This document shows, piece after piece, positions 2,183 to 5,803 of a DNA stretch of 46,030 bases (positions are counted from its first letter, which is position 1; the number at the start of each line of letters is the position of its first letter). The position numbers and the translations under genes were made by a program. The notes under the pieces are model-generated. The model was not told the DNA's origin and made no database searches. It saw only the letters and a program-made list of their open reading frames with translations. Source of the stretch: Candidatus Palauibacter australiensis (GTDB lineage: Bacteria > Gemmatimonadota > Gemmatimonadetes > Palauibacterales > Palauibacteraceae); assembly GCA_026705295.1 (NCBI GenBank), contig JAPPBA010000074.1, positions 1 through 46,030 on the forward strand, written 5' to 3'.

Positions 2183-2851
2183 ATGAAGCTTCGATCAGGT
2201 ATCCTCCGCTGGATTGGGTGGGGCGTACTCGTACTTGCGGTCGCCTGGACTGGATACCGCTTTAGCGTCTTGCGGACATTAGCGAACGAAATCGTCGTGC
2301 GGGCCCAGGAGCTGCAAACGGAGCAGACACGGTTGACGGGCACCTTGCGAGCTTACGAAGCCGGCTTCCTCCACCGCCCCGCCCGGGCGTTTACGCCGCA
2401 ATTCATGGAAGCCTCGGAATGGGTATCCGAAACCACCAACATCGCACTCAACTGGGAATGGCCGACCGATGGGATTTTCCTGGTAGTGGACTGGGACTGC
2501 CCGTGGTCGGAGGCGGCTGTGGAAGCAGCACTTGCCCTTCGCGAGATGTCGCCGAAACGGGAAGTGTTTCTGCTCGATACGGATCCTCGCAACGGATCCC
2601 GCTGGCGTCGGGCGTACGGTGCCGAGAAGTCGAAGTTGCTCCGAGTCGTGACCCCCCATGACGGCTGGTGGTCCGTCGGTACACCTCGCGGTGTCACCCC
2701 CGTGTGGTTCGTGGTTGAGGGAGGTGAGTTCACCGGCGTCGGCGTCGGCGCCGACGGTTTGCGCGCGCTGAGTTCGTTTGAATTCGATCCGGCGGCGCCG
2801 ATCGTAACGTCAATTGGCCCCGTTGAAGAACTGACTCTGAACGAAAGGTGA
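2183..2851 (+). CDS. Membrane-anchored thioredoxin-fold protein with CPWS site
   Basis: An upstream in-frame ATG exists at 2168, but ATG 2183 has GGGAG eight bases ahead, so the protein is taken as 222 residues. Residues 9-27 form one membrane segment, followed by a helical region and then a thioredoxin-like part: strand FLVVDWD, active site C106-P-W-S109, helix EAAVEAALALREM, and the cis-proline strand VTPVWFVV (P173). C106 is the only cysteine, so the site is CxxS rather than the CxxC of TlpA or MauD. It would face the periplasm. The stop is six bases before a cysteine-rich mini-protein gene, which suggests a redox or quality-control role towards that product. I assign no family below thioredoxin-like. 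Confidence 0.68.
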   Translation: MKLRSGILRWIGWGVLVLAVAWTGYRFSVLRTLANEIVVRAQELQTEQTRLTGTLRAYEAGFLHRPARAFTPQFMEASEWVSETTNIALNWEWPTDGIFLVVDWDCPWSEAAVEAALALREMSPKREVFLLDTDPRNGSRWRRAYGAEKSKLLRVVTPHDGWWSVGTPRGVTPVWFVVEGGEFTGVGVGADGLRALSSFEFDPAAPIVTSIGPVEELTLNER

Positions 2852-2857
2852 TCTCCC

Positions 2858-3106
2858 ATGCCGGCAAGACACGTTGCATCCTTCGCGCTTGCGCTGATCG
2901 CAGCAGCGCTGGTGGCGGTGACGGTCCCGCCGATTCCGTCGCTGCAGGCGATGAGTATGGCGTGCCAGGCGGGCCCCACGACGAAGTGCTGCACCTGCGG
3001 AGAGCAGGACGGAGAGCCATTCTGCAAGGGTGGAGCCTACATCGGAGCTGTGTCGTGCAGTGGCTCCTCCTGCCCGGATAATCCAGCCTGTCTGTGGATC
3101 CAGTAG
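2858..3106 (+). CDS. Secreted eight-cysteine mini-protein A
   Basis: The gene encodes 82 residues. Residues 1-31 form a signal peptide (basic start, hydrophobic core ALALIAAALVAVTV, probable cleavage near SLQA). The mature part is about 51 residues with eight cysteines at 36, 44, 45, 47, 56, 67, 72 and 78. It has the block PTTKCCTCG followed by DGE and CKGGAYIG, shared almost exactly with the second mini-protein encoded at 4319-4600. A Shine-Dalgarno-like AAAGGTG lies eight bases upstream of the ATG. I recognise no named family. The even cysteine count suggests four disulfides or a cross-linked cofactor. Its position between a thioredoxin-fold gene and a propeller-like lipoprotein gene suggests these three work together. 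Confidence 0.72.
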   Translation: MPARHVASFALALIAAALVAVTVPPIPSLQAMSMACQAGPTTKCCTCGEQDGEPFCKGGAYIGAVSCSGSSCPDNPACLWIQ

Positions 3107-3115
3107 GGACAGCGA

Positions 3116-4270
3116 GTGCTCTCGTCCCCTCGGCTGCGATTCATCGGGCCCCCGCCGCAGTTGCGTGGCGGCTACGTGAGAACTCGACGCTTCCATGCCT
3201 TGCGGCAGCTGTTACTGTGTTTCTCGGTTCTTGGCTGCGGAGAGGACAACCACCCGTGGCTAATACCCGGCTTGAGCGAGGTGAGGGCCGAGACGGCGGA
3301 GGCGGATTCCTCGTGGGTTGCCGTACCGCTCCGAGAATACGGTAGTCTATCCGGCGAGATATCCTTCGGCGCCCCTGTCGACGCGACGGTTCTCGCGGAT
3401 GGCAGTCTCGTTGTAGCGGATCTATACGCCTGCACCCTTACGGTGATCGCGCGACCTGACGGTCGTTTGCGCCAGAAGCTGGGTCGTTGTGGCGATGGCC
3501 CCGGCGAATTCCGCATGATCCGAATCATCGACGCGTTCGCCGGTTCCCTCTTCGTTTACGATCAGGGCCACGGCGCCGTCGTCGTGTTGGACGAAACGGG
3601 CCATGAGACGAGGCGAGTACCGCTGGAGATCGTGGGCGGGCGGGGTGTGACCCTTTCGCATCTGGCCGTGCTGGACGATTCGACGCTAGTGATCGCCACC
3701 GAGTCGGTCGACCACGCCGGCGTGGCGCTGGTCGACAGTCGCACGGGAGCGTTTCGCAGGTCCTTGGTGGAAGCTCCGCCTATCGCCGTGCGCTCGGACG
3801 GCTGGATCAGGCACATGGCGGCTTGCGTTGAGCCCAACGGCCGGTCGCCTACCATCGTCGCGACAAGTGAATGGGCGCTTGAAGGTGTTGGACTCGTATC
3901 CGATACCGGCGAAGAACGGTTTCATTTTCTGACATCGCTGGATCTGCCTCCCACGCTCGCATCGGGCGGGGCATGGGTGCCGGGACCGGCCAGAATCGAC
4001 GTTGCCTGTGGTCGCTCGCTCGCCCTTTTCCGCGCCGTGACCGTGGATCCGGACGACTTTACGGGAAGCATGGCGGACATCCGTGCATCGTCCGTGATTC
4101 TTGAAGCACGCGCGTACGACGGAGCCCTGCTGATGCGACGGTCGATCATGGACACGTCGTCCGTACTGCGGGCGCCCATGGGCGCCTTCAGGGGGGACAC
4201 GGTTTTTCTCTTGGCCGACAGAGTCCGACCGTACCCGGTAGTGAGCGAGATCGTGCTCCGGCCGCGCTGA
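3116..4270 (+). CDS. Six-bladed beta-propeller-like lipoprotein
   Basis: The protein has 384 residues from GTG 3116 (GGGAC five bases upstream). An alternative GTG at 3176 would give a more typical short leader, MRTRRFHALRQLLLCFSVLGC. Either way a hydrophobic stretch ends in VLGC (C41), a near-lipobox, so surface or periplasmic anchoring is likely. After that come repeated blade-like units: PVDATVLADGSLVVADLYACTL, a GRCGDGPGEF loop typical of 6-bladed propeller/NHL-like proteins, DAFAGSLFVYDQG and VALVDSRTG. In Bacteroidota, similar propeller lipoproteins sit beside small secreted Cys-containing peptides. Here the gene is flanked on both sides by paralogous eight-cysteine mini-proteins. No enzyme motif is visible. 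Confidence 0.66.
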   Translation: MLSSPRLRFIGPPPQLRGGYVRTRRFHALRQLLLCFSVLGCGEDNHPWLIPGLSEVRAETAEADSSWVAVPLREYGSLSGEISFGAPVDATVLADGSLVVADLYACTLTVIARPDGRLRQKLGRCGDGPGEFRMIRIIDAFAGSLFVYDQGHGAVVVLDETGHETRRVPLEIVGGRGVTLSHLAVLDDSTLVIATESVDHAGVALVDSRTGAFRRSLVEAPPIAVRSDGWIRHMAACVEPNGRSPTIVATSEWALEGVGLVSDTGEERFHFLTSLDLPPTLASGGAWVPGPARIDVACGRSLALFRAVTVDPDDFTGSMADIRASSVILEARAYDGALLMRRSIMDTSSVLRAPMGAFRGDTVFLLADRVRPYPVVSEIVLRPR

Positions 4271-4318
4271 GTCGTCGCGGAGATGTGTTCCACGCTTATC
4301 TTGACAAGGTGGTGTACC

Positions 4319-4600
4319 ATGAGGGACAAACAGAGCGACCTGGAGGGTCGGCGTTTCTTCGTTCTTGCCTCCGTGATCGCTGCGGGATTGATGGCGATTG
4401 TGATGCTGCCGGCTCCCTCCCCCGCACTCGGCTCGAGCGGGGCCGCGTGCAGTAGCTCGCCGACGACCAGATGCTGTGCTTGCGGCGATACTGACGGCGA
4501 ATTCTACTGTCACGGTGGCGCGTACATGGGGTCGCCGTACTGCGACGAGGGCACCGAGTTTTGCGAAAGAAGACTCTGCAGATCGCCGCAGCTACAATAG
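4319..4600 (+). CDS. Secreted eight-cysteine mini-protein B
   Basis: ATG 4319 is chosen because AAGGTGG precedes it by about seven bases; an in-frame ATG at 4283 has no such site. The 93-residue product has a leader with RR and a hydrophobic core (FFVLASVIAAGLMAIVML), with likely cleavage after ALG near residue 38. The mature part has eight cysteines at 44, 52, 53, 55, 64, 75, 82 and 87, in the same order and almost the same spacing as mini-protein A. The conserved core is PTTRCCACG, DGE, then C-x-GGAYMG. The two copies differ mainly in the last loop and tail, so this is an old duplication. Its end overlaps the convergent kynureninase gene by nine bases. Confidence 0.72.
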   Translation: MRDKQSDLEGRRFFVLASVIAAGLMAIVMLPAPSPALGSSGAACSSSPTTRCCACGDTDGEFYCHGGAYMGSPYCDEGTEFCERRLCRSPQLQ

Positions 4601-5803
4601 ACCGGAGCTTTCACCCAGAGCGGCCAGCGTGTCGTCCAGTTGCCGGTCGCTCAGATAGGGAGCCGGACCGAATCGCAGCAGATTGTCCCGATAATCCGTC
4701 GCGACGCCGCGCGCCGCGAGGGCCTCGTGGAAGTTGCACGCCCGCGCGGTGCGCAGCGCAAGGAAACCGCCCACCGTCTCGAGCGGCGTATTTCGGTCGC
4801 GGTCGATCAGTCCCGGGTCCAGGTCGAGCGCATCGAAACCCGCGGCCAGCCGGTCCACCTGATGCCGGCTCACTCCGCGCAGAAACTCCGGCGTCAGCCC
4901 CTGTTCGCGGAAGAAGTCGAACACCTCGGCCGCCCGGTAGTGGCTCGTCGGATCGTAGGTGCTGCCCGCGAACCGTTCAGCTCCGGGTCCGTACCCCACC
5001 CGCCCTTCTTCCTCTCCCCCGTGCAGCGCGGAGAACTCCGCGAACCACCCGGTGACGGCGGGGCGCAGCCGGCAGTCCGGAGGTACCCGGAGGAAGCAGT
5101 TCCCCTCGCCGAGCTGGCAGTACTTGTACCCGCCCCCCACCACGAACGCGCGTCCGAGTCCGAGGCTCGAGAGATCGAAGGGGATCGCGTTCAGCGCGTG
5201 GTAGGCGTCCACGAGGAGGTGGCACCCCACCTGTTCGCAGCGTTCCGCCACGCGGTCCAGCCCGCCGACGATCCGGGCGTCGCGGTAGAGGACGGCGGAG
5301 ACCAGCACGCCCGCCGTCTTGTCGTCCGTCGCGAGACCGAGCCGCTCGGAGAGCGAGTCGATCGGGTCCACGGGCACGCGGACGATGGTGAGTCCCTCCT
5401 CCTCCAGCCGGTCGAGCTGGCGCCGGATGGAGTGGAACTCCCCCCCCGTCGTCACGAGGCGGGGCCGCGTGCGCAGGGGCAGGGCGGAGAGAAAGCGCAC
5501 CACAAGTTCGTGCGTGTTCGAGCCCAGCGCGACGTCCCCGTCGTCCGGGCGCCCCGGGCGTCCGAGGAGTTCGGCGTACCCGGCGCGGACCCGGTTCCCC
5601 CGGGCGAACGCCTCCTCCCACTTCCCGTCCACGAGGCGGGCGGCGTCCTCCCAGGCCCGGAGCTGTCCCTCGAACCCGCGGTCGGGCCACGCCTGGTGCG
5701 AATGTCCGGTGAGGAGCAGCCGCTCCGCGACCCGGAAGCGCGAGTAGAACGGGGCCAGCGCGTTCGGCTCCCGGTAAAGGTCCTCCGGCGCGAAGCCGGT
5801 CAC
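4592..5803 (-). CDS. kynU: Kynureninase
   Basis: This 403-residue PLP enzyme would cleave kynurenine to anthranilate and alanine in the cytoplasm. The PLP lysine is K227 in GGGYKYCQLGEG, matching the kynureninase YKY motif. The pyridine-binding aspartate lies in LLVDAYHALNAIPFDL, and GGEFHSIRRQLDRL and TSHYRAAEVFDFF are also characteristic. The start is GTG, ten bases after the kynA stop, and it is the last gene of the minus-strand operon. The cysteine-rich locus converges on its 3' end. A 3-hydroxykynurenine preference cannot be excluded, but the anthraniloyl-CoA genes in the same operon favour kynurenine. Confidence 0.9.
   Translation of the reverse strand: MTGFAPEDLYREPNALAPFYSRFRVAERLLLTGHSHQAWPDRGFEGQLRAWEDAARLVDGKWEEAFARGNRVRAGYAELLGRPGRPDDGDVALGSNTHELVVRFLSALPLRTRPRLVTTGGEFHSIRRQLDRLEEEGLTIVRVPVDPIDSLSERLGLATDDKTAGVLVSAVLYRDARIVGGLDRVAERCEQVGCHLLVDAYHALNAIPFDLSSLGLGRAFVVGGGYKYCQLGEGNCFLRVPPDCRLRPAVTGWFAEFSALHGGEEEGRVGYGPGAERFAGSTYDPTSHYRAAEVFDFFREQGLTPEFLRGVSRHQVDRLAAGFDALDLDPGLIDRDRNTPLETVGGFLALRTARACNFHEALAARGVATDYRDNLLRFGPAPYLSDRQLDDTLAALGESSGLL

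Follow-up and report, generated by a model that had tools for sequence, protein, structure and literature searches.

Gene content and boundaries of the cassette

We analyzed a 46,030-nucleotide stretch (the window) of contig JAPPBA010000074.1 from Candidatus Palauibacter australiensis, a sponge-associated Gemmatimonadota bacterium (genome G000, contig C74), focusing on a cassette of four genes located between mobA and kynU. All four genes are on the + strand and encode, in order, a putative membrane-anchored thioredoxin-fold protein (positions 2183-2851, stop codons included here and for the other three genes), the small peptide A (2858-3106), a predicted beta-propeller lipoprotein (3176-4270) and the small peptide B (4319-4600). 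A preliminary description of the window had reported four co-directional genes at these positions. The open reading frame (ORF) of the first gene extends from 2168 to 2848 before its stop; ATG 2183, the start chosen in that description, is the likelier one, with a GGAG located approximately 7 bases upstream. The propeller gene most likely starts at GTG 3176, which was preferred because an ATG occupies that site in the sister species G024. With this start the intergenic gaps are 6, 69 and 48 bases; thus, the outer two of the previously given values (6, 9 and 48) hold, and the 9-base gap would apply only if translation began at an alternative upstream GTG at 3116.

The left boundary of the cassette is the stop codon of mobA (1194-1907, + strand). 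The intergenic region that follows (1908-2167, + strand) is a presumed promoter region; the cassette is approximately 95% conserved with genome G024, and mobA and kynU nearly abut in six sister species. The right neighbour, kynU (4592-5803, - strand), is convergent, and its 3' end overlaps that of the peptide B gene at 4592-4600. Scanning the window for Rfam families and tRNAs gave no matches.

Peptides A and B are paralogous eight-cysteine mini-proteins under selection

Peptides A and B are encoded as precursors of 82 and 93 amino acids, respectively, and each mature part contains exactly eight cysteines. These residues are spaced 7-0-1-8-10-4-5 in peptide A and 7-0-1-8-10-6-4 in peptide B, in essence the pattern described beforehand, and the two share 45-49% identity, in line with the paralogy proposed for them. 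Both are predicted to be exported from their signal-peptide-like N-termini. Comparison of G000 with G024 revealed 11 synonymous versus 2 nonsynonymous changes in peptide A (Fisher P = 4e-6 against equal rates) and approximately 12 versus 7 in peptide B (P = 1.3e-4). All four cassette genes are conserved in the sister species with a lower nonsynonymous than synonymous substitution rate (dN < dS). The synonymous excess therefore identifies the peptides as translated and selected; they are real genes and not chance ORFs. Neither peptide matched Pfam (to E 1), NCBIfam or PHROG. Every peptide homologue detected lies within the same cassette, and none stands without the propeller or thioredoxin neighbours to which the preliminary description had tied it. 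Weak peptide profile matches at six other loci (L016 and L020-L024) were chance frames when read in context.

A lone-cysteine thioredoxin-fold protein and an NHL-type propeller

A single membrane helix forms the N-terminus of the first protein; an extended helical segment follows, and the domain after it carries the motif D-C-P-W-S. C111 of this C111-P-W-S site (CxxS) is its only active-site cysteine, so the redox-active CxxC pattern is matched at the first position only, and a GVTP cis-proline motif lies downstream; the lone-cysteine membrane thioredoxin named in the preliminary description was thus recovered. No match to Pfam, NCBIfam or PHROG was obtained, including their thioredoxin family models. 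An AlphaFold2 model built from three near-identical sequences, in an alignment that included proteins of loci L110 and L111, was of low confidence (mean predicted local distance difference test score [pLDDT] 51) and had the thioredoxin element order beta-alpha-beta-alpha-beta-beta-alpha. When this model was searched against the PDB with Foldseek, nearly all of the best matches were TlpA/ResA/CcmG-type thioredoxins (best E 0.011, probability 0.99), supporting a thioredoxin fold and topology of this type at the level of a low-confidence model. The predicted protein shares with TlpA, ResA and CcmG the N-terminal membrane helix, the thioredoxin domain and the cis-proline, and differs from them in its lone-cysteine CPWS site and in the lack of a family-model match. 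CxxS enzymes have no resolving cysteine, bind clients for longer and act as isomerases and holdases (PMC12384036). ERp44, AGR2 and AGR3 likewise have a single active-site cysteine with serine at the second cysteine position (PMC12384036); however, they are eukaryotic secretory-pathway proteins, and the analogy is one of chemistry only.

The propeller lipoprotein has a signal peptide ending in VLG-C. It matched the TRIM2 NHL domain (E 4.5e-6), and its match to the six-bladed propeller family DUF5128 (PF17170; E 0.003) scored 17.1 bits, below the 22.9-bit cut-off. An AlphaFold2 model, for which the alignment consisted of the window and L009 proteins only, was all-beta and of low confidence, and its matches in the PDB included NHL propellers and surface lipoproteins of the BtuG type (E down to 5e-7). 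The propeller-like fold assigned earlier is therefore backed by the NHL matches and by this model. Such propellers are abundant in this lineage: a single-query search turned up 12-17 per genome in several members of the genus, and at least 39 in a genome of the class. In a propeller tree, peptide-associated members did not group together (9 changes over the 10 marked rows, which left out the propellers of loci L201, L231 and L232, described below), and a single clade of peptide-associated propellers was rejected.

The same gene order recurs with an unrelated peptide family

To extend the analysis beyond the window, 232 distinct propeller regions across the phylum were scanned for small exported cysteine-rich ORFs. 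A thioredoxin gene, then one or more eight-cysteine exported peptide genes, then a propeller gene on the same strand were found in the window and at three other loci in genomes of one other family: L201 (genome G074; propeller, CSAC thioredoxin, peptide, propeller), L231 (G405; lone-cysteine CAVS thioredoxin, peptide, propeller) and L232 (G303; CAAC thioredoxin, three tandem paralogous peptides, propeller). The thioredoxins of these three loci are homologous at 39-43% identity and retain both neighbours. A search of that family with the L201 thioredoxin recovered it in 3 of 21 genomes, each time with a peptide and a propeller beside it. When the three were aligned with the window protein, the active-site cysteine and the TP of the cis-proline motif were in register. 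The peptides of L201, L231 and L232 form a family with a spacing of about 3-4/5-5/9-1-1-8/9-1, and no homology between them and the window peptides was detectable. The three-part unit is thus modular, occurring in the same order with an unrelated eight-cysteine peptide family elsewhere in the phylum.

We also compared propellers with other genes under identical criteria. A cysteine-rich exported mini-ORF was located directly upstream on the same strand of 9 of 172 propellers compared with 1 of 371 controls (P = 2e-4), with the window family uncounted through de-duplication. The enrichment was also seen under three other thresholds (P < 0.001); the numbers are small, the thresholds were fixed after first looks, and one of the nine mini-ORFs (L156) looks like a chance frame. 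Three other propellers (L118, L201 and L070) adjoin a thioredoxin gene, and two of them had a cysteine-rich peptide (P ~0.005-0.01), a count based on regular-expression detection that misses lone-cysteine thioredoxins. In approximately 1.45 Mb of Gemmatimonadota DNA, 8 of 9 mini-ORFs with a signal-like segment and at least eight cysteines were beside propellers; these regions were picked mostly around propellers, and the figure is supportive only. Together, these analyses demonstrate linkage of thioredoxin, cysteine-rich peptide and propeller genes. The unit proposed in the preliminary description as a surface peptide system is upheld as a multi-gene unit by the recurrence of the triad in three other-family genomes and by the upstream enrichment.

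Related arrangements were identified at other loci. L118 (G019) encodes a six-cysteine peptide, a propeller and a Thioredoxin_4/DsbA protein. L169, from a genome of the window's genus (G029), encodes a propeller between two paralogous peptides (E 3e-7). A seven-cysteine peptide family precedes the propeller at four loci (L064, L151, L069 and L144); its copies in G023 (L069, 4624-4901; L144, 5074-5356) are split by a frame change, and the G024 copies are intact.

Three further settings were observed. In five genomes (G026, G030, G023, G025 and G031; loci L125, L128, L148, L159 and L174) a conserved run comprises a propeller, an ECF-type sigma factor, a small membrane protein, a secreted protein and a TPR lipoprotein whose C-terminal part is a TlpA-type thioredoxin with CGPC, and represents a second propeller-plus-thioredoxin setting in the genus, without a cysteine-rich peptide. 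The window's own genome encodes at L056 (contig C179, 1395-5999, - strand) a row of a sigma factor, a 763-amino-acid protein, a five-cysteine exported peptide and a propeller; the 763-amino-acid protein has a zinc-finger anti-sigma-like start and a cysteine-free redoxin-like C-terminal end. L214 (G291, 1173-1704) encodes two tandem paralogous exported cysteine-rich mini-proteins (CPAEGYDYYY...) with marginal similarity to DUF6520, and there was no propeller in the fetched stretch.

The window cassette is narrowly distributed and appears acquired

Of the 17 genomes of the genus, 3 carry the cassette, and no other genome searched in the family has it. In six sister species the stop codons of mobA and kynU are only a few tens of bases apart, with no cassette between them, and G025 lacks it despite being related to G000 about as closely as G024. 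The G+C content of the cassette is 63% compared with 68% for the window, and G+C at third codon positions is 0.70-0.74 in its genes compared with 0.88-0.94 in the flanking genes. Because it is present in few genomes, has an empty site in six sisters and is lower in G+C, the cassette looks acquired; this patchy presence and atypical composition point to gain by transfer, with repeated loss the less likely history.

Phylum-wide profile searches (395 genomes each) yielded no additional genuine homologue of the peptides or the thioredoxin, and no relative of the cassette parts searched was found in viral contigs, phages or plasmids. Weak thioredoxin matches in family f6 (L233 and L234) were in ordinary housekeeping regions. 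Apparent gene damage in G019 consisted mostly of a 100-N scaffold gap and one-base differences, and we claim no pseudogene there.

Comparison with known systems

Small exported cysteine-containing peptides encoded next to a propeller lipoprotein gene, often with redox proteins nearby, are characteristic of the NVEALA/six-bladed propeller loci of Bacteroidota. The window resembles these loci in that small exported cysteine-containing peptides adjoin a propeller lipoprotein, which here lies between the two. In contrast, the window peptides have an eight-cysteine pattern, a CxxS thioredoxin gene directly upstream and no family-model match. Membership of NVEALA was rejected on the lack of any Pfam match at E 1. 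The NVEALA model (PF14055) matched 0 of 200 Gemmatimonadota genomes, with Bacteroides ihuae matching as a control, which agrees with the distinction from the NVEALA type drawn in the preliminary description. DUF6520 (PF20130) was also rejected: the window peptides did not match it, and none of 298 genomes contained a match over the cut-off. Of the sub-threshold DUF6520 matches in the phylum, those to the L214 tandem peptides alone appear genuine; the best likeness of a peptide from the unrelated seven-cysteine family had E 0.017.

BtuG-type propeller lipoproteins of Bacteroides are described as capturing ligands at the cell surface (PMC6143338, PMC10404256). The likeness to the window protein is in the propeller lipoprotein fold, as found by structure search with a low-confidence model; the window cassette differs in having no adjoining TonB-dependent transporter, an NHL-type propeller sequence and peptide neighbours. 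No published description of the thioredoxin, eight-cysteine peptide and propeller set was found in the family libraries or open-access papers searched, and no known function of peptide-plus-propeller loci was found for any bacterium in those papers. What would be new is the thioredoxin partner on peptide-plus-propeller envelope loci that are themselves functionally undescribed.

Interpretation of the cassette

We lean towards reading the cassette as a cell-envelope module that serves a disulfide-rich mini-protein, with the CxxS thioredoxin as folding helper and the propeller as binding partner. Peptides A and B would be exported, and their eight cysteines probably form four disulfides within a compact fold. 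Because it has one active-site cysteine, the thioredoxin-fold protein cannot resolve its own mixed disulfide; given the established chemistry of CxxS enzymes, it most likely serves these peptides specifically, as disulfide isomerase or holdase. The propeller lipoprotein may bind the peptides and hold or display them at the outer membrane, as suggested by the recurrent linkage and by BtuG. The complex might serve in ligand capture, signalling, antagonism or contact with a host. Gene linkage is what we observe; peptide-propeller binding and the thioredoxin chemistry are what we infer.

Several findings weigh against this interpretation. Most propellers of the phylum have neither a cysteine-rich peptide nor a thioredoxin; peptide-propeller pairs occur without a thioredoxin (L064, L151, L168 and L187), and at L070 a DsbA-like protein and a propeller occur with no peptide found. 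The thioredoxins of the window and L201 are only weakly alike (E 9e-5, in an alignment that shifts the active site; hhalign E 0.054), and the structure models of both the thioredoxin and the propeller are of low confidence. No homology between the peptide families could be detected, and the parallel arrangement could be convergent.

Four other explanations were considered. The peptides could be released, disulfide-stabilized bacteriocin-like toxins or signals, with the propeller as immunity or receptor protein. Small paralogous cysteine-rich secreted peptides that differ wholly between lineages, in three tandem copies at L232, the narrowness of each peptide family, and the patchy distribution and atypical composition of the cassette would all fit such a role in antagonism or communication. 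However, the cassette lacks genes for an exporter, a peptidase or lysis, passage across the outer membrane takes more than a Sec-type signal peptide, no family match to known bacteriocins and no defence-family match worth noting was obtained, and peptide A is under purifying, not diversifying, selection. We therefore regard this explanation as unlikely.

Less likely again is a periplasmic redox or ligand-converting enzyme in which the disulfide-rich subunit docks on the propeller as MauA does on MauB and the thioredoxin acts as MauD. The mau cluster encodes a small cysteine-rich exported subunit, a propeller subunit and a dedicated thioredoxin-fold protein (the MauA, MauB, MauD and MauE set), and the same three-part logic recurs in the window, L201, L231 and L232, where a small disulfide-rich subunit, a propeller partner and a thioredoxin-fold protein are encoded together. 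In contrast to methylamine dehydrogenase, the residues for a Trp-Trp quinone are absent from the window peptides: there is one tryptophan in A, none in B and one in each of the other eight-cysteine peptides, and B cannot form a Cys-Trp quinone. There is also no MauE-like gene in the cassette, a single propeller serves two paralogous peptides, and that propeller is an NHL/DUF5128-like lipoprotein with no sequence match to any mau family. Membership of the methylamine and quinohemoprotein amine dehydrogenases was rejected on the tryptophan content, and an amine-dehydrogenase form of the cofactor role that had been raised for the surface system is unsupported.

A chance island, in which an unrelated cysteine-rich peptide pair and a thioredoxin relic came to lie beside a propeller, is disfavoured and improbable. 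The abundance of propellers and the narrow, probably acquired nature of the cassette would allow it; against it stand the recurrence of the order with unrelated peptides in three other-family genomes alongside mutually homologous thioredoxins, the upstream enrichment and the conservation of all four genes with dN < dS. Least credible of all are exported metallothionein-like or CDGSH-like carriers delivering metal or iron-sulfur to the propeller, since the marginal CDGSH profile match (E 0.053), with the same C-x-C-x8-C spacing in the peptide cores (2858-3103 and 4319-4597), has alanine in both peptides at the aligned ligand histidine (CDGSH membership, which calls for three cysteine ligands and one histidine, was rejected for this) and no CDGSH motif, the peptides carry an export signal, export and the thioredoxin neighbour make disulfides likelier than free thiolates, and the other eight-cysteine family has no detectable similarity to the window peptides.

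Returning to the folding and binding module, its recurrence with unrelated peptides suggests an undescribed kind of cell-envelope module. A broader version of this proposal, which we advance tentatively and hold to be less probable than the module itself, is a new class of bacterial envelope system in which a propeller lipoprotein holds interchangeable eight-cysteine mini-proteins, folded by a dedicated CxxS or CxxC thioredoxin, and unrelated sequences take the peptide's place from one lineage to another, as in a cassette-based display or ligand system. A thioredoxin that travels with unrelated eight-cysteine peptides offers a way into the mechanism: the peptides are expected to be disulfide-bonded clients that become trapped in mixed disulfides with the natural CxxS protein. 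If correct, this would mean that a little-studied phylum living in sponges and soils has a modular envelope system, and would provide a source of natural disulfide-rich mini-proteins.

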